Below are positions 39,447 to 52,983 of a stretch of 64,000 nt of DNA, piece after piece. A program made the translations under genes and the position numbers. The DNA is from Chlorobaculum tepidum TLS (GTDB taxonomy: Bacteria; Bacteroidota; Chlorobiia; Chlorobiales; Chlorobiaceae): NCBI RefSeq assembly GCF_000006985.1, contig NC_002932.3:1041109-1105108 (forward strand). The letters run 5' to 3'. Under the pieces are notes generated by a model that saw only the letters and a program-made list of their open reading frames with translations, ran no database searches and was not told the DNA's origin. Each line of letters starts with the position of its first letter. Position 1 is the stretch's first letter.

Positions 39447-39474
39447 AAAAGCCTGCTTTGACGCAGGCTTTTTT
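39447..39474 (+). terminator. terminator behind tRNA-Cys
   Basis: GCCTGC (39451-39456) and GCAGGC (39463-39468) with a six-base loop, preceded by AAAA and followed by six T. It can serve both the tRNA and the convergent aminotransferase operon. Confidence 0.85.
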
Positions 39475-39495: not shown

Positions 39496-40653
39496 TTACC
39501 CGATCTTCTCGGCACCGGAAATAATGGCGGCAACGAGTTTGTCGATGGTGGCGTCGTCCATCAGCACGGGGATATTCAGGCAGATGCTGCTCTGGAGAAG
39601 CTGGCCGGTTTTCGGCCACAACTCTTCAAGGTTGGCATCGCGGTACCGGTCGTAGGCCTTCAGGAGATGACCCCAGACAGCAGCGTAGTGCCAGTCGATC
39701 GCTTCGGGCAAAATCTTGGTGCCGAAACCGTGCTCCATCAGGTGCGCCTCGAACTCCAACGCAGCCTTGGGATCGCGAACCTTGAAGATCAGCGTATCGC
39801 CCTGCGCTCCAGCTTCGTCGGTGAAGGGGCGCATCGTGAGGTTGCTGAGGTGGCTGATGCGATCTTTAATCTTGTACTTGTTCTCCCGCGCTTTGGAGAG
39901 GATGTAGTCGATTTTGGCGAGCTGGGCGACGCCGATGGCGGCAGTCACTTCGCTGAGTCGGTAGTTCAGACCCTTGGCGCGGCGCGGATCCTTGCCGCGC
40001 AGCAGGCCAGGCAGGTGCATGTGGCCGTGGTCGGAAAATTCGGCCACGCGGTCGTAGATATCCTTGTCGTCGGTGATGACCATGCCGCCCTCACCGACGT
40101 GCAGCGTTTTGCCCGCATCGAAGGAGAAGGAGCCAACCTTGCCGATGGTGCCGAGCTTGCGGCCTTTGTAGGTCGCGCCGAGCGACTGGGCGGCGTCTTC
40201 AATGAGCGTCACGCCGCGGCGCTCGCAGATTTCGGCGATTTCGTCCATTTTCGGTGCGGCCCACATCGGAATCGCCACGACGGCCTTGGTCTTCGGCGTG
40301 ATCGCCTTTTCGACCTCCGCCGGATCAAGGTGGTAGGTCTCGTCGATCTCCACCGGCACCGGCACCGCGCCAAGCGCGGCGGCGGCTTCGACCGGAGCGA
40401 TGAAGGTCCATGCGGTGGTGATCACCTCGTCGCCCGGGCCGACGCCCGCAGCCGCCAGCGCGCAGTGAATCGCCGCCGTGCCCGACGAAACGGCGTGAGC
40501 GTACTTCACGCCCATATATGCGGCGAACTTCTCCTCGAACTCTCTCGCCTTGTAGTTACCCGGCGCATACCGGTACAGCGTGGTTTTCTCCCCGCTGAAT
40601 AACTCCTGTATCTGGGCCAGTTCCTCTTTCCCAATCAGCTCGGCTCCTGCCAT
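39496..40653 (-). CDS. DegT/DnrJ-type sugar aminotransferase, KdnA-like
   Basis: A 385-residue PLP-dependent aminotransferase of the DegT/DnrJ/EryC1 family. Marks: HAVSSGTAAIHCALAAAGVG, GDEVITTAWTFIAPVEA, LIEDAAQSLGA, the lysine loop SFSFDAGKTLHVGEGG and FSDHGHMH. From memory, the N-terminus and the HGH segment recall KdnA of Shewanella, which puts an amine on C8 of Kdo after KdnB oxidises it. The next gene upstream is a KdnB-like iron alcohol dehydrogenase, which strengthens the idea. An amino-ulosonate is the predicted product; the exact sugar is inferred. It is the last gene of a five-gene operon. Confidence 0.82.
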   Translation of the reverse strand: MAGAELIGKEELAQIQELFSGEKTTLYRYAPGNYKAREFEEKFAAYMGVKYAHAVSSGTAAIHCALAAAGVGPGDEVITTAWTFIAPVEAAAALGAVPVPVEIDETYHLDPAEVEKAITPKTKAVVAIPMWAAPKMDEIAEICERRGVTLIEDAAQSLGATYKGRKLGTIGKVGSFSFDAGKTLHVGEGGMVITDDKDIYDRVAEFSDHGHMHLPGLLRGKDPRRAKGLNYRLSEVTAAIGVAQLAKIDYILSKARENKYKIKDRISHLSNLTMRPFTDEAGAQGDTLIFKVRDPKAALEFEAHLMEHGFGTKILPEAIDWHYAAVWGHLLKAYDRYRDANLEELWPKTGQLLQSSICLNIPVLMDDATIDKLVAAIISGAEKIG

Positions 40654-40721
40654 AGTGTTTGATTTTTTTTAATTATTGTTTGTGTCCACGTTATTCATTA
40701 CGTCAACTTCACCACTTTCTT

Positions 40722-41855
40722 TCAAGTCAGCGCGTCGATTACCACCCGGGCCGACTCTTCGTTAAACTCCACAGGGTTGCCACCGAACGATCCCGAAAGC
40801 GCCTGCGAGGCTTTGCTGGCCAGCTCGGCGACGTTGCCTTTGCCGTAGCCGTAGGGTACGAGGTTCGGAATGGCGAGCTGGCAGTAGAGCGCGTCCATCT
40901 GTTCGAGCAGTTCCAGCGCGGACTCCCTTGCCGATGCGCCCTCTTTTCGGGCTGGATTGAGCAGCGCGTATTTGTCATATCCCTTGTTGACGTTGTAACG
41001 CATCACCTCCTTGAGGAAGATCGCACCCGCAAGGCCGTGCGGCACCTGGTGCTTCACGCCGACGTAGTAGGCGAAACCGTTGGTCGGGCCGTCCCCGGAG
41101 TTCATGAGCGCCGTGACGCCGCAAATGCTGCCAAGAGCGAGGTCGAGACGTGATTCGGCGCGGTCGAGCTGTCCCTGCTGCAATGCGTAGAAGGTGCGCT
41201 GGAAACCTTCGATCGAAAAGATGCGGCTCAGCGCGGTGTGCTTGACCGAACCAAAGCTGTCCACGCAGTGCACGAGGCTGTCCATCGCCGAGGCGATGAC
41301 GCTCTCCATCGGAGCGCTCATCGAGAGTTTCGGATCGATGACCGAGCGTTTCGGGAAGTTCTTGCGGCTGTTGATACCGAGCTTGCGTCCTTCATCCTCG
41401 TCGATGAAGACCGCGTTATAGCTCACCTCAGCACCGCTGCCAAGCAGTGAAGGCACGGTCACGAGCGGCACTGGGTCGCTCACATCCTTCGGGAAGCCCT
41501 TGAGCGAAAGCGCCGGAACGTTGTTGGTCAGGAGAAGCGCAACTCCCTTGCCGAGATCGATGGTGCTGCCGCCTCCGATAGCCACCAGACCATCGGGCAG
41601 TTCTCGGCGGAAAAACTCCGCGACATTTTCGAGATGCCGGTAGGTCGGCTCGCCCCTGAACTCGTTGCAATAGACGACCGCATTGGCGTAGCAGGCGTTG
41701 ATGTTGCGCAGTACATCCTGGAAATAGAGGTTTTCTGAAAGGCTTGCATCGTAGATGATACCCGGTTTGGCGATGCCGAGCGACTGAAGATGCTCATGCA
41801 CAGAGAGGGCCTCGTTGACCCCGATACACAGGTCGGTGGAAAGAAAAAAGTTCAT
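40722..41855 (-). CDS. iron-containing alcohol dehydrogenase, KdnB-like
   Basis: A 377-residue group III alcohol dehydrogenase. NAD and metal motifs: DGLVAIGGGSTIDLGKGVAL, VPSLLGSGAEVS, SAMDSLVHCVDSFGSVKH and GVKHQVPHGLAGAIF, the last two giving the iron-binding His residues. The segment GRKLGINSRKNFPKRSVIDP resembles KdnB, the Kdo 8-oxidase. Encoded 68 bp before the KdnA-like gene. It would make the keto group that the aminotransferase uses. Other sugar-alcohol oxidations are possible. Confidence 0.8.
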   Translation of the reverse strand: MNFFLSTDLCIGVNEALSVHEHLQSLGIAKPGIIYDASLSENLYFQDVLRNINACYANAVVYCNEFRGEPTYRHLENVAEFFRRELPDGLVAIGGGSTIDLGKGVALLLTNNVPALSLKGFPKDVSDPVPLVTVPSLLGSGAEVSYNAVFIDEDEGRKLGINSRKNFPKRSVIDPKLSMSAPMESVIASAMDSLVHCVDSFGSVKHTALSRIFSIEGFQRTFYALQQGQLDRAESRLDLALGSICGVTALMNSGDGPTNGFAYYVGVKHQVPHGLAGAIFLKEVMRYNVNKGYDKYALLNPARKEGASARESALELLEQMDALYCQLAIPNLVPYGYGKGNVAELASKASQALSGSFGGNPVEFNEESARVVIDALT

Positions 41856-41886
41856 ATTGTCTTGATTTTGTTGGGTTTGTCGGATT

Positions 41887-42591
41887 TCAGGATCGGAGGA
41901 ACGAACGATCGATGCCTTTCTGCTTCAGGTAAAATTCGACGAGATCGACCTCCTCAATGGTATCGATCTCCCAGGTCTGCCAGAACTCCATCAGATACAC
42001 CGAAAGCTTCTGGCCAATACGATTACCGAACTCGCGCAGCACCGAGGGCGTAAAGAGGTAGATCGAGCCGTTTTCGATGAACTGCGACGGTCGATCCTGC
42101 CGCATTCCGCGATTCCGATAGTCGAAGTTCACACTATTCCAGTCGCCTCCGCGCTGTTCCCATATGGTCAGGTCGTCGGCCCGCGTCACCGAAATGAGCG
42201 AATCGGCCCCTTCGAGCCGAAACAGTTCGATGGCGCGATCGATGTCCCCCGGCTTGCGTAAGGGCGAGGTTGCTTGCAGGAACACGACCGTCTCCGGCTC
42301 CGCGCCGTACCGCTCGGCAATCACTTCGAGCGCGTGCAAGAGCGCCGACTCCGAGGTCGCCTTGTCGCCGCTGATGCGCTCCGGGCGATCGATCACCTCC
42401 GCACCGAACTGCCGTGCCACCTGAGCGATGGCCGCGTCGTCAGTAGTCACGAAAACCTGATCGACGTGTTCGGCATCCAAAGCCTGCAAGACGCTCCATG
42501 CCAGCAGCGGAAGACCAGCTATGGGGTGGATATTCTTGTTTTTCAGGCCCTTCGAGCCGCCGCGCGCCGGAATGATGGCTGCCGTCCGCAT
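41887..42591 (-). CDS. CMP-sugar synthetase (NeuA-like cytidylyltransferase)
   Basis: A 234-residue nucleotidyltransferase. The CTP-binding start [20 protein letters not shown] is the acylneuraminate type (not the RYAST form of KdsB), followed by [20 protein letters not shown] and [13 protein letters not shown]. It should couple CTP to a 2-keto sugar acid, making the CMP-activated donor of the amino-ulosonate built by the two downstream enzymes. Encoded 31 bp before the KdnB-like gene. Confidence 0.85.
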
Positions 42592-42633
42592 TCAGTGATT
42601 TCCGTACGTTTCTTGGTTATTGTCTGTTCCGCA

Positions 42634-43590
42634 TCATTTTTCGATCACCTCCCGGCAGACTTCGGCGATTTTTCGAGCTGCCGAGCGATTCTGCAACGGA
42701 GTAAGACGCTTGAGATAGTCGGGTTCCAGCCCGCAATATACCGGTTTGTTCAGTGCCGATCCTACAAAAATCGTCGAAGAAAACTGCGCGATCATCATCT
42801 GCGAATTGGCAATCATCTCCTCGGTCTTCCCTTCCGCATAGACGATGCTTCCCGGCGCGTACAGCTCGATTTCCCTCGTTGCCCGCACGACGTTCTCGTT
42901 GGGATGGAGCTTGAAGAGCAGCTGCCGCCCGTCGGCCATGTCGAGGTACTTGCGGATGTTGCGCTTGCGGTTCTCGTAGATGAAGGTCTCCCGGTTGTCG
43001 GAGGTACAAACCAGCACGTAGTCGCGATGCTCGAAGTCGTTTTCGAGAAAGCGCTCGCAGTTGTCGAAGTTGGGAATGCTGGTCACCTCGATCTTTTCGG
43101 GCCGGACGCCTTTGCTGATGAACAGGTCGCGGTATCCTTCACTGGCCACGCAAAACTTCTCGTAAGTATCAGAAAGACCAGTCATTGCGGTGCCTGCGAT
43201 CCAGCGAGGCACCCAGCGAAAGTTGCGGGCGAGATGAAAGAGGATCGTTTCAGGCTCGGTCATTCCCTCCTGAACCAGCACAATTTTTGTGCGCTTGATG
43301 TGCTTCGGTACAATGAGATCGGTGCAGGTCACCACCAGATCGTAACGGTGCAGCGTACCGCCAATGTCGAGCTGAAGATTGTGCGAAGTGAGGTAGTCAA
43401 TGGCTTTGCTGGCGCGCTTCTTGCCCATGATCGTGAATTCGAGCATGCCCAGATCGGAAGCCTTGCCAAGCAGGCCGTCGCTGAAAAAAGGGGTGAACCA
43501 CTGATCGTACTCCCGGAGATGCTCCGAAATCTGGTGCATCTGGGTAGTCTGATTCATCGATCCGCAGACAAACAGAATCTTCTTCCTCAT
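42634..43590 (-). CDS. GT-B-like glycosyltransferase candidate
   Basis: A 318-residue protein I cannot place in a named family. It starts with a Rossmann-type strand (KKILFVCGSMNQTTQMHQIS) and has a second half with VLVCTSDNRETFIYENRKRN, LLFKLHPNENV and MMIAQFSSTIFVGSALNKPV. Two Rossmann halves with a late HPxE-like motif recall GT-B transferases and UDP-GlcNAc 2-epimerases. In this operon it most plausibly moves the CMP-linked sugar onto an envelope acceptor. Its start overlaps the stop of the membrane gene upstream by 4 bp. Confidence 0.55.
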   Translation of the reverse strand: MRKKILFVCGSMNQTTQMHQISEHLREYDQWFTPFFSDGLLGKASDLGMLEFTIMGKKRASKAIDYLTSHNLQLDIGGTLHRYDLVVTCTDLIVPKHIKRTKIVLVQEGMTEPETILFHLARNFRWVPRWIAGTAMTGLSDTYEKFCVASEGYRDLFISKGVRPEKIEVTSIPNFDNCERFLENDFEHRDYVLVCTSDNRETFIYENRKRNIRKYLDMADGRQLLFKLHPNENVVRATREIELYAPGSIVYAEGKTEEMIANSQMMIAQFSSTIFVGSALNKPVYCGLEPDYLKRLTPLQNRSAARKIAEVCREVIEK

Positions 43591-44651
43591 TCGCTCTTTT
43601 CACTGACTTGTTCGGCATCCCGGAGATGAATGCCCTCCATAAACATCACGCCGTAACCTATAGAATACCAGATCACCTCCTTCAGGCGGCGCAGCATCAC
43701 GAACGCTCCTCCATAGGCAAGGTAATCGGGCACGCCAAGCGCATGAAAAAAAGCGAGATAGCCCAGATCCTGAATCCCCAGACCCGATGGGATGAAAAAA
43801 AAGATCGCCCTGAGAATGGTCAGCGCCGTGTCGAAAGCAAGCACCTGAAAGAAAGTCACCTTGAGACCAAGAACGTGTAATATAAGATAACTTTCCAACG
43901 CCAGCATCATCCACGCCGCCACATAGATCGCCATCACCGGCAGGATAACACCCATGCCAGAGGCCTTGATGTGCTGAAGCTTCTGGTCGGTTTCGGCAAA
44001 CCCCGCCTCACGCTCGAGCAGCCACGCACGAACCTTTTCAAACGGTATTTTCATCAGCAAGCGATGCAGCTTCTGAACAGCATTACCATTGGTCATCAAA
44101 AAAAGAAAGAGCGAAAACACCACGGCTATGGCAAGACTCACGACAATCATAATCACGCCAAGCCCTTGAAAACCAACCACCTGAACGGAGACAGTCTGGA
44201 GCATCCCGAACCCCGCAATCGCACCGAGCAGCGTATAGACACCCTGGGTGAGCCCAAGCAGCAGCTTGCGCACGGCCACGCTGGCGAAGCCGTCCGGAAG
44301 AGGAATGCCGAGAAATTTCCGGCAGAGCCATGGTCGCAGCGGCTCACCAACCGCCACACCTGCGGGCAAGGTCATGGAGACCGTTTCGGCAACCAGCTGG
44401 ATTTTGAAGAGCCCGAAAAACGGTACCGGACCGCTCTCTTTGGGAAACAGCCGCTGCCAGGCCGCCGTTTCAAGCAAATGCAGCCCGAGATAGGGCAGAA
44501 GAATCAACAGCGATGACGGCCCCAGCGAAGCGATCAGCTTCATCGAACCGGCAAGATCGATCTTGCTGAACAGATACACGATGAGGGCCAGACCGGCCAG
44601 AAGCCCCGCGTAACTTGTCCAGGACTTTTTTCCTTTCTTGCGAGCTTGCAT
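43587..44651 (-). CDS. LPG-synthase-type flippase-like membrane protein (UPF0104)
   Basis: A 354-residue membrane protein with about eight helices, of the lysylphosphatidylglycerol synthase TM-region family. Marks: GLLAGLALIVYLFSKIDLAG at the start, SMTLPAGVAVGEPLRPWLC, and FFIPSGLGIQDLGYLAFF near the C-terminus. The soluble aminoacyl-transfer domain of true MprF is absent, so it is the membrane part only. Relatives are often found with envelope glycan genes and are thought to act in lipid or glycan transfer. It is first in the five-gene operon. Confidence 0.75.
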   Translation of the reverse strand: MQARKKGKKSWTSYAGLLAGLALIVYLFSKIDLAGSMKLIASLGPSSLLILLPYLGLHLLETAAWQRLFPKESGPVPFFGLFKIQLVAETVSMTLPAGVAVGEPLRPWLCRKFLGIPLPDGFASVAVRKLLLGLTQGVYTLLGAIAGFGMLQTVSVQVVGFQGLGVIMIVVSLAIAVVFSLFLFLMTNGNAVQKLHRLLMKIPFEKVRAWLLEREAGFAETDQKLQHIKASGMGVILPVMAIYVAAWMMLALESYLILHVLGLKVTFFQVLAFDTALTILRAIFFFIPSGLGIQDLGYLAFFHALGVPDYLAYGGAFVMLRRLKEVIWYSIGYGVMFMEGIHLRDAEQVSEKSE

Positions 44652-45042
44652 GGAATCGATTGGAGATGAATCAGTTGTGCGTCCGGCGGGGCTACTGCGC
44701 TACTTGCCGTCCGCCCGAAATGGAAGCGCACAAATATATCAAAAATAAGGAATTCCCGTGAACCGGCATTTGCCAAGACTCTCTCCGGATGCGACAGCAA
44801 TTTCAAGAGAGATGTTGAGTCGCCTCATGCGGGATGAATGAGAGCGCGTACCGATAACCAGGCTACCGAAACCGGCAATAAATTGTTGGATAAAAGAACT
44901 CCGATTATTACATACCAGTATATTGATCACATTCAAAGCGTTCCTGTCACGTCGTCCATTGTTGGACATCCTTGTTGACCGTTTGCGTCAGAGCCGATTG
45001 CCTCGATTCTCTTCTCATCATTCCGGAATCAAACACTCATTT
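44652..45042. other. divergent intergenic region
   Basis: About 390 bp between the glycan operon and the acyl-CoA synthetase gene. It should hold two divergent promoters. The reading frame of the synthetase is open upstream to 44923 but shows no family-like sequence there. I see no RNA gene or clear operator. Confidence 0.4.
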
Positions 45043-46872
45043 ATGGGACTCATCAATCCTGATTTCCAGACCTTGCCCGAACTGTTCACCTCGGTGTTCA
45101 GTCATTTCAAAGGACAGCCTGACAAAGCGCCTATCGCCAGGAAAATCAATGGCGCTTACTCGCCGATCAGTTACGACTCGCTGGCGGAAGATTGCCGCCA
45201 CTTTGCCGCTTATCTGAAAGAAAGGGGCATCGAGCCGGGCGACCGGGTGGCCATTTTGTCAGAGAACCGTCCGGGATGGTACCTGGCCGATATAGCGATT
45301 CTTTCGCTCGGGGCAACCGACGTGCCACTCTATCCATCCCTTCCGCCAAACCAGATCGAGTATATCCTGAACAACTGCAGCGCAAAGGGCATCATCGTCT
45401 CAAACATGCTGCAGCTCGGCAAAATCCTCTCCATCTGGCCAAAGCTTCCGGAGCTGAACATGGTGATCGTCATGAACAAGCTCGATGAGCCGGTTGAAGA
45501 TGTGATCGACCTGAGCCAGGCGAAAACCGAGGGGAAAAAAGTGCTGGAGGCAAAACCGTGGCTGCTCGACGGCATCAAAAGCAATCCCGACGATGTAGCG
45601 ACGCTCATCTACACATCAGGAACAACAGGGTTGCCGAAAGGGGTCATGCTCACCCACCGGAACATTTGTGAAAACGTCAAATCGTGCTCAACGGTCATCC
45701 GGATCGACCAAACCGACAGCAGCCTCTCATTCCTTCCACTCTCGCACGCCTACGAGCGCACCGGTGGATACTACCTCATGTTCGCCTGTGGTGCACGGAT
45801 CAATCTCGCCGAAAGCGTCGAAACCATCTCGCTCAACATCTCGGAAGCCAAACCCACCATCATCTTTACGGTGCCAAGACTCTTCGACCGCATGAAGGCA
45901 AGCATTCTCAAGTCGGTGACAAGCGAAGGCGGCGTAAAGGAGAAAATCTTCTTCTGGGCTGTCAGCACCGGTGAAAAATACCACAAGCAGCTCGCCACCG
46001 GAAAGGTGTCGCCGCTGCTCGCCGTGCAGCACAACCTGGCCGACAAGCTGGTTTACAGCAAAATCCGCAAGAAATTCGGTGGAAAGCTGCGCTACTTCGT
46101 CTCCGGCGGCGCAGCGCTGCCCCAGAAAACGGGCGAGTTTTTCCAGTCCATCGGCATTACGATCCTCGAAGGGTTCGGCCTGACCGAAACCTCGCCCGTC
46201 ACCAATGTCAACCGGCCCGAAAAAGTGAAGTTTGGCACAGTCGGCCTACCGGTGAAAAATGTCGAGGTGAAGATCGCACCGGATGGCGAAATCATGCTCA
46301 AGGGTCCCAACATCATGAAGGGCTACTGGAAAGACGAGGCCGCGTCCGCCGAAGTCCTCAGGGATGGCTGGCTCTACACGGGCGACATCGGCGAGGTCGA
46401 TTCTGAAGGATACCTGAAAATCACCGACCGCAAAAAGCATATCATCGTAACCAGCGGCGGCAAGAACATCGCTCCCCTGCAGATCGAGAACCTCATTCTC
46501 GACAGTCCATACGTTGATCAGGCCATGATTGTCGGCGAAAAGCGACCGTTCCTCATCGCGCTCATCGTGCCGGATTTCCTCAAGCTCAGGGATTTCGCGG
46601 CAGAACACCAGATCAAAGCATCAAGCACCAAAGAGCTGATCAACACCAAAGAGGTGATTGAGGTTTACGAGAAGCTGCTGAAGAGCATCTCCCGCCAGCT
46701 TGCCACCCATGAAAAGGTGCGGAAATTCCTGCTTCTCGAGGAGCCATTCTCGATTGAAAACGGCATGATGACCCCGACGCTCAAGCTCAAGCGCAAGGAG
46801 ATCACCACAAAATTCAGCGCCGAAATCGACAACCTTTACAACACGCTGAACATGGTCTATAATACGGAGTGA
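45043..46872 (+). CDS. long-chain acyl-CoA synthetase (AMP-forming)
   Basis: A 609-residue FadD-type ligase that activates fatty acids through an acyl-AMP. Motifs: P-loop [52 protein letters not shown] and [15 protein letters not shown], the last bearing part of the catalytic lysine region. The C-terminal [14 protein letters not shown] is common in the AMP-dependent long-chain group. I start at the ATG giving [15 protein letters not shown]; the 40 upstream codons look non-coding. Just past its end the DNA changes to the candidate cassette block. Confidence 0.9.
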
Positions 46873-47807: not shown

Positions 47808-48038
47808 ATGAGCAAGAAGATGATTTGCTACTGCAGTAGTGTGACGGAGGAGACAATCGTCTCGGCGATCCGCCGAGGCGCAACCACCCTCAAGAAGATT
47901 CAGGACACAACGGGTGCCTGCACCGTCAACCGTTGCAAGGAGTTGAACCCAAGTGGTCGCTGCTGCTCTGGCGACATTCTTGACCTGATCGAGAGAGAAA
48001 CAGGAAGCAGACCATCGTCACCGTGCTGCTGTGAGTGA
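47808..48038 (+). CDS. BFD-like [2Fe-2S]-binding protein (cassette 2)
   Basis: A 76-residue protein of the bacterioferritin-associated-ferredoxin-like (BFD/Fer2_BFD) type: CYC at residues 7-9, VSAIRRGATTLKKIQDTTG, then CTVNRCKELNPSGRCC. Four cysteines (7, 9, 38, 43) would hold a [2Fe-2S] cluster; two more at 52-53 and a CCC near the end are unusual. Free-standing BFD domains mediate electron transfer in iron release or in dehydrogenase assemblies. The gene starts 20 bp after one attC-like site and ends next to another, so it looks like a complete cassette. Its partner is not known. Confidence 0.75.
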   Translation: MSKKMICYCSSVTEETIVSAIRRGATTLKKIQDTTGACTVNRCKELNPSGRCCSGDILDLIERETGSRPSSPCCCE

Positions 48039-48043
48039 TGGGC

Positions 48044-48120
48044 TGCCAACAACCGAATCGATTCGCACGCTGAAAGCCGCGCCAGCTCGCCACCCAGCGA
48101 CGGTCATTCAGGCGTTAGCC
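48044..48120 (+). repeat. attC-like recombination site 2 (weaker)
   Basis: Begins with TGCCAAC just behind the BFD-like gene. AAC and GAAT on the left pair with ATTC and GTT on the right; the inner GCTG pairs with CAGC. It ends with GGCGTTAGCC (GTTAGCC at 48114-48120), which looks like an attC R' end. The stem has many mismatches, as attC sites do, but R'' is not a good match to RYYYAAC. Confidence 0.4.
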
Positions 48121-48162
48121 CGCAGTGACCAAGAGGAAGCATCGACTAAAAAGGATCAGCCC

Positions 48163-48807
48163 GTGAACTACGTCAAGTCCAAGCAACGTGTCGCCGACCA
48201 CGGGGAGGTCTTCACTCCGGCGTGGTTGGTCGAGGCAATGATCGACCTGGTGAAGGACGAGACGGAACGCATCGACGCCCGATTCCTGGAGCCGGCGTGT
48301 GGGAGCGGCAATTTCCTGGTACCCATCCTGCAACGCAAGCTCGCGGCCGTCGAGCGCAAGTTCGGGAAGTCCAACTTTGAGAAACAGCACTACGCGCTTT
48401 TCGCCGTAATGTGCACCTACGGGATTGAGCTCCTGGCGGACAACATTGCCGAGTGCCGCGCGAACATGCTGGAAATCTTCGCCGACTATCTGACGCTCGA
48501 CGAGTCGGACGAACTCTACCGGGCTGCTATCTATGTGTTGTCCCAGAACCTGGTCCACGGCGACGCCCTGAAGATGCGCACCAGCGACGGCCAGCCCATC
48601 GCCTTCGCCGAATGGGGCTACCTCGGCAAGGGCAAGTTCCAACGGCGTGATTTTCGCCTCGACAGTCTCGCGATGTCGTCAACCTTCAGCGTGGAGGGCT
48701 CGCTCTTTGCCCACCTTGGGAAACATGAGATCTTCACGCCAACCAGGACCTACCCGCCAATGACGGTGAGTGAGCTGGCAGCGCGGGCAGCGGAGGCGAA
48801 CCTATGA
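48163..48807 (+). CDS. SAM-dependent DNA methyltransferase-like protein, motif I only (cassette 3)
   Basis: A 214-residue protein with the N6-adenine methyltransferase core: DHGEVFTPAWLVEAMIDLV, then the SAM-binding motif ARFLEPACGSGNFLVPIL and YGIELLADNIAECRANML. The catalytic NPPY/F motif is absent and the protein ends soon after, so it may be a structural or SAM-binding partner of the next gene. I choose the GTG start at (V)NYVKSKQRVADHGEVFTP because AAGGA lies 8 bp upstream; the frame is open 44 codons further, through the attC-like site. It overlaps the next gene by 4 bp (ATGA). Confidence 0.75.
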   Translation: MNYVKSKQRVADHGEVFTPAWLVEAMIDLVKDETERIDARFLEPACGSGNFLVPILQRKLAAVERKFGKSNFEKQHYALFAVMCTYGIELLADNIAECRANMLEIFADYLTLDESDELYRAAIYVLSQNLVHGDALKMRTSDGQPIAFAEWGYLGKGKFQRRDFRLDSLAMSSTFSVEGSLFAHLGKHEIFTPTRTYPPMTVSELAARAAEANL

Positions 48808-50378
48808 CCACCCAAGCCCCCTTTTCCCTGCGCGGCAGGAACCCCGATGTGCTCACCTGCATCGCCAACCTCAGCAACGACGAGGTCTTCACCCCGCCGG
48901 AGCTGGCGAACCGCATGCTGGATACGCTCACTGAAGCGTGGGCGGCGAACCACAACGGCGCGAACCTCTGGGCGGACAAGACGGTGACGTTTCTCGACCC
49001 CTTCACCAAGTCCGGCATCTTCCTGCGCGAAATCACGCGGCGGTTGGTGGAGGGGCTCACGGAGGAAATCCCGGACTTGCAGGAACGGGTGAACCACATC
49101 CTCACCCGGCAGGTCTTCGGCATCGGCATCACCCGCCTCACCGCGATGCTGGCGCGGCGCAGCGTCTATTGTTCCAAGCACGCCAATGGCCCACATTCCG
49201 TTTGCAAGACCTTTACCACGGAAAGCGGCAATATTTGGTTCAAGCGGGTGGAGCACACCTGGAAGGATGGTCGCTGCATCTATTGCGGCGCCAGCCAGAG
49301 CACGCTGGATCGCGGGGAGGAACGGGAAACCCATGCTTATGCGTTCATTCACGCGGACGACATCCGGACGCGGATCAACGAGATTTTTGGAGGCGACATG
49401 CAATTTGACGTGATTATCGGGAATCCACCGTACCAGTTGGATGACGGCGGATTTGGACGAAGTGCCAGTCCGATCTACCAAAACTTCGTCGAGCAAGCAA
49501 AAAAGCTCGAGCCACGCTACCTGGTGATGATCATTCCCTCTCGGTGGATGGGTGGCGGAAAAGGGCTCCGTGAATTTCGCGCTACGATGCTCAAGGACAA
49601 GCGCATTCGCAAACTCGTGGATTACGAAAATGCTCAGGACGCATTCCCCGGTGTCGATTTAGCCGGTGGGGTTTGTTATTTCCTCTGGGATCGTGATTGC
49701 CCCGGTCTGTGTGAGGTCACCAATATTTCTGGGGGCGAGAGCGTGACCACCGTGCGCCAGCTCGATGAATTCTCAACGTTCATCCGTAACAGTGCAGCCA
49801 TTTCGATCATTCGAAAAGTTATGGCAACCAATGAACCGCGAATGAGCGAACAGGTTTCCAATTCAAAACCTTTTGGATTGCGAACCTTTGTCCGCCCGGA
49901 AAAGAAAGGGGATCTGATCCTCCGCTGGGAAAAAGGAGAGGGTCCATATCCTCGAGAAAAAGTTACAGCAGGTCACGACATGATCGACAAATGGAAGGTC
50001 ATCACGTCCTATGTCGGATATGATCACGCTGGTAATCCGGGCAAAGACGGACGTCGGCGGGTTTTTTCCAAAATTGACATTCTCCCGCCGGGAACGATTT
50101 GCACTGAGACCTATCTTGTCGTCGGCAGCTACGGTAGCAAAACGGAAGCAGAGAACTTGGTTGCCTACATGAAGACGAGATTTTTCCGATTTCTTGTCGC
50201 ACAGTTCATGTATTCGCACCATCTTACAAAGTCCGCCTATGAGCTTGTGCCCATTTTGGATATGAACGAAACATGGACCGATGCAAAGCTTGCTGCACGG
50301 TATGGTTTGACCGATGACGAAGTGCAGATCATCGAATCCAAGATACGCCCGTTCGACAATGGCAACGGCGCAGGTTGA
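48804..50378 (+). CDS. Eco57I-type adenine DNA methyltransferase (cassette 3)
   Basis: A 524-residue N6-adenine methyltransferase. It opens with NDEVFTPPELANRMLDTLTE, a motif-I-like TFLDPFTKSGIFLREI near residue 70, and the catalytic FDVIIGNPPYQLDDGGFG near residue 205, then MIIPSRWMGGGKGLREFR. Between them lies a Cys/His-rich insertion (YCSKHANGPHSVC and CIYCG) that may bind zinc. The C-terminal half (about 300-520) probably recognises DNA. It likely marks host DNA for the neighbouring helicase-nuclease. It overlaps the small methyltransferase gene upstream, and the helicase gene starts 19 bp downstream. Confidence 0.85.
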   Translation: MTTQAPFSLRGRNPDVLTCIANLSNDEVFTPPELANRMLDTLTEAWAANHNGANLWADKTVTFLDPFTKSGIFLREITRRLVEGLTEEIPDLQERVNHILTRQVFGIGITRLTAMLARRSVYCSKHANGPHSVCKTFTTESGNIWFKRVEHTWKDGRCIYCGASQSTLDRGEERETHAYAFIHADDIRTRINEIFGGDMQFDVIIGNPPYQLDDGGFGRSASPIYQNFVEQAKKLEPRYLVMIIPSRWMGGGKGLREFRATMLKDKRIRKLVDYENAQDAFPGVDLAGGVCYFLWDRDCPGLCEVTNISGGESVTTVRQLDEFSTFIRNSAAISIIRKVMATNEPRMSEQVSNSKPFGLRTFVRPEKKGDLILRWEKGEGPYPREKVTAGHDMIDKWKVITSYVGYDHAGNPGKDGRRRVFSKIDILPPGTICTETYLVVGSYGSKTEAENLVAYMKTRFFRFLVAQFMYSHHLTKSAYELVPILDMNETWTDAKLAARYGLTDDEVQIIESKIRPFDNGNGAG

Positions 50379-50397
50379 GTAAAGCTGGAATTTGCTC

Positions 50398-52960
<2,563 letters not shown>

Positions 52961-52983
<23 letters not shown>

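Follow-up and report, generated by a model that had tools for sequence, protein, structure and literature searches.

In Shewanella, the aminotransferase KdnA and the iron-type alcohol dehydrogenase (Fe-ADH) KdnB, of the subgroup FeADH3/cd08184, make 8-amino-3-deoxy-D-manno-octulosonic acid (8-amino-Kdo) (PMC5125639). In the pathway to 2-keto-3-deoxy-D-glycero-D-galacto-nononic acid (KDN), mannose-6-phosphate (Man-6-P) is converted to KDN-9-phosphate (PMC6200933). The lipooligosaccharide (LOS) of the green sulfur bacterium Chlorobaculum tepidum contains Kdo by measurement, and the structure of its outer-membrane lipid was stated to be unknown (PMC12285230). We analysed a window of 64,000 nucleotides of C. 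tepidum TLS (bases 1041109-1105108 of the single-contig genome of 2,154,946 bp), in which a five-gene operon probably encodes part of an amino-ulosonate pathway based on a NeuB-family synthase, namely its steps of amination, activation, transfer and membrane placement. Gene order, conservation, clades, the separate Kdo genes, the linkage of transferase, NeuB and phosphatase in other families and the gene replacement were computed, whereas the sugar, its acceptor and all catalytic steps are inferred. Five head-to-tail open reading frames of the minus strand, from 44651 to 39496, were confirmed at the coordinates given in a first-pass annotation that a model had made from the sequence alone, and Pfam/NCBIfam and PDB searches concurred with its family names:

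43587..44651, minus strand: first gene, LPG_synthase_TM/HpnL/flippase-like membrane protein, 354 aa (PF03706, E=6.9e-28; TIGR00374 'flippase-like' above cut-off)
42634..43590, minus strand: GT-B-fold glycosyltransferase-like protein (GT), 318 aa, proposed cytidine monophosphate (CMP)-sugar transferase (no curated Pfam cut-off exceeded; predicted fold and motifs)
41887..42591, minus strand: NeuA/PseF-type CMP-ulosonate synthetase, 234 aa (best PDB match 6ifd, CMP-N-acetylneuraminic acid (Neu5Ac) synthetase, E=1.6e-36)
40722..41855, minus strand: Fe-ADH, 377 aa (PF00465, E=2.5e-34; also PF25137)
39496..40653, minus strand: DegT/DnrJ/EryC1 aminotransferase, 385 aa (PF01041, E=2.6e-82; pyridoxal phosphate (PLP) lysine kept)

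The membrane protein and GT genes overlapped by 4 bases (ATGA). All five genes were found in the same order and on the same strand in 23/23 Chlorobiaceae loci read, with small gaps save for an insert of ~1.1-1.3 kb in two loci; this arrangement is not due to chance, and its constancy argues for a core envelope function rather than a variable O-antigen. A first survey of 44 Chlorobiaceae genomes found the Fe-ADH in 43. The sole exception (G153) retained NeuA (82%) and the GT at the end of a contig (C71), indicating that the operon is probably present there too and that the missing aminotransferase is probably a contig-end effect. The aminotransferase orthologue was confined to the Chlorobiaceae (family f1). 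When the sister families of the order were examined, the NeuA/Fe-ADH/DegT trio was not found in them; the GT and NeuB were present there as in Chlorobiaceae, so that within the order only the trio is a Chlorobiaceae speciality. Co-occurrence of trio and NeuB failed as proof of linkage, since NeuB was detected in 95/98 Chlorobiales genomes and the trio in Chlorobiaceae only.

The link between operon and NeuB came instead from the transferase, whose homologue is clustered with a short NeuB in other families and is not adjacent to it in Chlorobiaceae. The cluster transferase occurred in 137 of the 394 Bacteroidota/Chlorobiota genomes sampled, mostly Chlorobiaceae, with ~45 in other families. In those other families the gene order was (LPG) - GT - SpsF-type cytidylyltransferase - (TktN - TktC) - class III aminotransferase (AT3) - short-chain dehydrogenase/reductase (SDR) - phosphatase - short NeuB - OlsE-type fatty-acid hydroxylase, and the loci were as follows:

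L236, L238-L240, L286-L305 (e.g. L236:9731-18400), many Bacteroidota families: ordered GT-SpsF-...-NeuB-hydroxylase cluster

The GT homologues of this cluster were 45-58% identical to the GT of the window and shared a fragment with the short NeuB in 19 of the 24 fragments examined; a homologue of the membrane protein adjoined the GT homologue in other families as well. The short NeuB was 63-83% identical across the Chlorobiaceae and other-Bacteroidota versions, and in one locus (L305:3814-5238, minus strand) it was fused to the phosphatase in a single 475-residue frame. The sister families of the order carried the SpsF/AT3 version (L286, L287). By contrast, no AT3 orthologue was present in the Chlorobiaceae tested (best 34%), and SpsF was not found in them by a profile search that should detect the SpsF type (43 bits on the same model). 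In Chlorobiaceae, NeuA, Fe-ADH and DegT thus appear to have replaced SpsF, SDR and AT3, exchanging activation, oxidation and amination in parallel, and this apparent replacement is the strongest single argument. It provides an example of a sugar pathway that exchanged the enzymes of three steps for those of other families and kept its synthase and transferase. The swap was probably one evolutionary event, so the genome counts are not independent evidence. Lipid acyltransferases and a metallophosphoesterase were seen beside the cluster in some families. The first-pass annotation had regarded the pathway as undescribed for green sulfur bacteria; a literature search, thin on subscription journals, recovered no paper on the Chlorobiaceae pathway, nor one on the ulosonate cluster of Bacteroidota, which is brought to light here and seems to be undescribed. 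The pathway is nevertheless not peculiar to green sulfur bacteria, as the transferase/NeuB/phosphatase cluster occurs across Bacteroidota.

The following sequence of steps is proposed. The short NeuB would combine a sugar phosphate and phosphoenolpyruvate (PEP) into an ulosonate phosphate, with KDN from Man-6-P as the simplest guess, and the phosphatase, given its adjacency and fusion to NeuB, would free the 2-keto-3-deoxy ulosonate. By analogy with KdnB chemistry, the Fe-ADH may oxidise the terminal CH2OH to CHO, and the DegT enzyme, if it resembles KdnA in function, may convert CHO to CH2NH2; from KDN, this would yield 9-amino-9-deoxy-KDN. The pair would then work like KdnB/KdnA. The NeuA-type enzyme, judged by its family, would activate the amino-ulosonate with CMP, and the GT-B protein would pass the CMP-sugar to an envelope lipid or glycan. 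The LPG/flippase-like protein may move the lipid-linked product or help to place it, which is the weakest step.

When the aminotransferase was compared with PDB sequences, the best match was Shewanella KdnA (5k8b, E=2.7e-76), in keeping with the first-pass label of a KdnA-like enzyme, and this DegT-family protein (PF01041) had the PLP lysine in an FSFDAGKTLH motif. However, it lay outside the KdnA clade: the tree separated KdnA proteins of Shewanella, Sulfurivirga and Bacteroidota from a Chlorobiaceae+SAR86 group (100/100). For the Fe-ADH, the family held and the label KdnB-like proved too strong. Its best PDB matches were 1,3-propanediol dehydrogenase and lactaldehyde reductase (E ~1e-28), KdnB (5k8c) followed far lower at 1.1e-14, and the trio clade (100/99) stood apart from the KdnB clade (100/99). 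The metal site read D192, H196, N259 and H273, whereas the third place was His in all aligned KdnB-clade members; the D/H/H/H ligand set of KdnB relatives was therefore not kept. The aminotransferase carried PMWAAP in place of the VHMCGSM of KdnA and GTKILPEA.DWHY in place of WYVNNWHY, stretches that likely line the substrate site. In the gene contexts compared, true KdnA/KdnB adjoined KdsB, KdsA or WaaA; none of these was beside the aminotransferase of the window, all three being elsewhere in the genome. With clades, contexts and residues all differing, we rejected the pair as true KdnA/KdnB. The first-pass annotation had held that its idea would suffer if the two enzymes grouped with unrelated sugar pathways, and half of this was found: they did not group with KdnA/KdnB, and they did group with a NeuB-linked set.

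Both trees placed the pair with a metagenome-assembled genome (MAG) of SAR86 (L106) and, less surely owing to long branches, with a Bacteroidota genome (G131). The SAR86 order was NeuA - Fe-ADH - aminotransferase - CBS/NeuB/TIM-barrel fusion, with identities to the trio of 53% for NeuA, 44% for Fe-ADH and 60% for the aminotransferase; the G131 copy of the pair was inside a NeuB/NeuC/NeuD-like/NeuA cluster. Since the closest relatives of the trio are NeuB-linked and apart from KdnA/KdnB, the ulosonate is likely NeuB-made and not Kdo. The SAR86 NeuB (L106:11155-13401, plus strand), right after the Fe-ADH/aminotransferase pair, was part of a fusion with a CBS domain at the N terminus and a xylose-isomerase-like TIM barrel at the C terminus. 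Many Flavobacteriaceae (loci L093, L094, L103-L104 and L107-L132, mostly of this family) carried a KdnA-like aminotransferase with no recognisable KdnB/KdsB in the flanks fetched.

The synthetase was matched better by PseF/NeuA than by KdsB; the PseF model gave 106 bits, below its cut-off of 205.7, and the tree set the protein apart from KdsB and from SpsF. By sequence it is closest to CMP-NeuA/PseF and not KdsB, and the PDB and PseF matches together with the tree bore out the earlier call of a NeuA-type enzyme. A complete and separate Kdo set was encoded elsewhere in the genome (KdsB, KdsA adjoining KdsC, and WaaA), indicating that Kdo does not need the operon and that the NeuA-type synthetase has another job. 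In a close relative (G052; L045/L047, C1:2232049-2232812), KdsA was split over two overlapping frames, by a frameshift or an assembly error. An alternative is that the pair oxidises and aminates free Kdo as in Shewanella, with 8-amino-Kdo then activated by the NeuA-type enzyme and destined for the LOS core, which would agree with the KdnA match, with the Kdo genes of the genome and with the Kdo measured in C. tepidum LOS (PMC12285230). We consider this unlikely: both enzymes fall in clades apart from KdnA/KdnB, the synthetase is of NeuA rather than KdsB type, the transferase is NeuB-linked in other families, NeuB accompanies the nearest relatives of the trio, and the metal site and substrate-loop motifs are unlike those of KdnB/KdnA. 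In line with the first-pass suggestion, an amino 2-keto-3-deoxy acid different from 8-amino-Kdo is the probable product, and it would have activation, transfer and membrane steps to itself.

A single NeuB-family gene was detected in the genome (one PF03102 match, 262 bits, C1:785049-785759), and with its adjoining phosphatase it occupied C1:784337-785810, ~300 kb from the operon. The NeuB protein was short (289 aa) and had no SAF domain. In Neisseria NeuB, an arginine of the SAF domain touches the N-acetyl group; the lack of this domain is therefore in keeping with a sugar that is not acetylated. The neighbour was a second KdsC-like phosphatase, for which the best NCBIfam model was KDN-9-phosphatase (NF058599; 138 bits, below the cut-off of 180). 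The bit score was dropped as proof, as many other Bacteroidota phosphatases scored equal or higher. The enzyme had the E56/R64/K67 letters of BT1713, compared with R/M/A in the KdsA-side KdsC, and E/R/K was present in 17/17 cluster phosphatases aligned; these letters are support for a KDN-9-phosphatase, not proof of it. That a phosphatase follows the synthase points to a phosphorylated substrate, like that of the KDN pathway. KDN may be the actual ulosonate, with at best an even chance.

The NeuB product could instead be a shorter ulosonate from another sugar phosphate, supplied by the two-subunit transketolase of the sister clusters and then aminated by the trio. In most sister families the cluster enclosed TktN/TktC, and the SAF-less short NeuB had no specific match to a KDN synthase. 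However, five clusters that were complete in other respects (L295, L297, L298, L299, L302) lacked the Tkt genes, and no Tkt gene was present in the Chlorobiaceae operon, no genome-wide search for the pair having been made; we regard a shorter ulosonate as quite improbable. Still less credible, and very improbable in our judgement, is an operon that is independent of the remote NeuB and uses a nucleoside diphosphate (NDP)-sugar or a scavenged ulosonate, with the likeness in gene order a GT-LPG leftover only: the distance of NeuB and phosphatase from the operon in C. tepidum and their retention in trio-less families would suit it, but NeuA-type synthetases need a free ulosonate, only KdsA and the short NeuB were found as makers here, and the transferase has a close homologue that clusters with the short NeuB.

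An AlphaFold model of the transferase from a wide alignment of 30 sequences reached a predicted local distance difference test score (pLDDT) of 91.8 and a predicted template-modelling score (pTM) of 0.88, superseding an earlier model from a Chlorobiaceae-only alignment (pLDDT 63.7) and its matches. Foldseek neighbours of the model included TagF (cytidine diphosphate (CDP)-glycerol), Bcs3 with CMP and a polysialyltransferase with CDP; profile searches against PDB sequences gave nothing useful. The predicted GT-B fold thus lends support to what had been a guess from sequence. The motifs QEG (107-109), HP (229-230) and FSS (270-272) were kept in the 30 aligned members, and QEG, HP and SS in both the Chlorobiaceae and the other-Bacteroidota versions. 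EG, HP and SS motifs mark CMP-sugar transferases of bacterial sialyltransferase-like families. From fold, motifs and context, the protein would be expected to transfer a CMP-sugar. The LPG/HpnL/flippase-like protein and the OlsE-type hydroxylase of the sister clusters point to a lipid acceptor, and the sugar may plausibly be exposed at the cell surface. PMC11762602 cites a 1991 report of an aminoglycosphingolipid from Chlorobium limicola; that this lipid holds the sugar of the operon is a guess. Tentatively, and with less than an even chance by a clear distance, the product could be an undescribed nonulosonic acid with a terminal amino group, for example 9-amino-9-deoxy-KDN (C9H17NO8, isomeric with free neuraminic acid), carried on an envelope lipid, perhaps that aminoglycosphingolipid, with the same or a near-identical sugar made by unrelated enzymes in other Bacteroidota. 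The analysis thus makes a specific prediction for the C. tepidum outer membrane, an unusual amino sugar, and the gene set is testable in an organism that has genetics.

Several observations weigh against a NeuB-based amino-ulosonate pathway as proposed here. The NeuB/phosphatase pair is outside the Chlorobiaceae operon and linked to it by comparison alone, and neither gene depends on the trio, since both are also present in trio-less sister families. The short NeuB was about equally far by sequence from Neu5Ac, pseudaminic acid (Pse) and SpsE-type synthases, which leaves Man-6-P a presumed substrate, and the E/R/K letters also occurred in some phosphatases not beside NeuB. The Asn259 that stands for a metal-ligand His makes the activity of the Fe-ADH uncertain, as judged from the alignment. 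UDP-GlcNAc 2-epimerases were also among the Foldseek neighbours of the transferase. In a Synergistaceae locus (L113), a KdnA-like enzyme and an Fe-ADH adjoined KdsB, showing that such pairs can serve Kdo; the Fe-ADH of this locus was outside the trio clade and kept its histidine ligands.

Past the last stop codon, the operon ended in a terminator-like element, with a convergent tRNA gene beyond it:

39447..39470, minus strand: GC-rich hairpin followed by TTTT (AAGCCTGCGTCAAAGCAGGCTTTT), intrinsic-terminator-like by direct sequence reading, just past the last stop codon
39369-39442, plus strand: tRNA-Cys, convergent to the operon, beyond the terminator-like hairpin

Divergent to the operon was a long-chain acyl-CoA synthetase-like gene (window 44923-46872, plus strand), which was nearby in 22 of the 23 Chlorobiaceae loci and may hint at a lipid product. 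Further away (window 48031-52983, plus strand), an N6-methylase (MmeI/N6_Mtase) and an adjacent Eco57I-type methylase were followed by a large helicase-like frame, likely a restriction-modification island.

Like the KdnA/KdnB operon of Shewanella, the locus pairs an Fe-ADH and a DegT enzyme with a CMP-ulosonate synthetase, and oxidation followed by amination of the terminal carbon is shared if the functions proposed for the window are correct. It differs in having a NeuA-type synthetase for KdsB, N259, other substrate-loop motifs, separate clades and a link to NeuB in place of one to Kdo. The KDN pathway of Bacteroides thetaiotaomicron (BT1713-BT1715; PMC6200933) shares the NeuB-family synthase, the KdsC-like phosphatase with E56/R64/K67 and the NeuA-type synthetase. 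In C. tepidum, however, the synthase belongs to a short SAF-less clade, the genes are at two loci, the use of Man-6-P is presumed, and the set is extended by an oxidation/amination pair as well as by a transferase and a membrane protein. The Bacteroidota GT-SpsF-...-NeuB cluster has a homologous GT, an LPG protein in some cases, the short NeuB (63-79% identity) and the phosphatase in common with Chlorobiaceae, whereas CMP activation, oxidation and amination there fall to unrelated or distant families, and the OlsE-type hydroxylase does not adjoin the genes of Chlorobiaceae. Clusters for neuraminic, legionaminic and pseudaminic acids (nonulosonic acids, NulO) likewise contain NeuB, NeuA and a CMP-sugar transferase. 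Unlike them, the operon has no uridine diphosphate (UDP)- or guanosine diphosphate (GDP)-sugar precursor genes with it, and the amine is apparently added late, at the end carbon. A NeuB-type ulosonate together with KdnAB-like terminal amination is a new combination of known parts.

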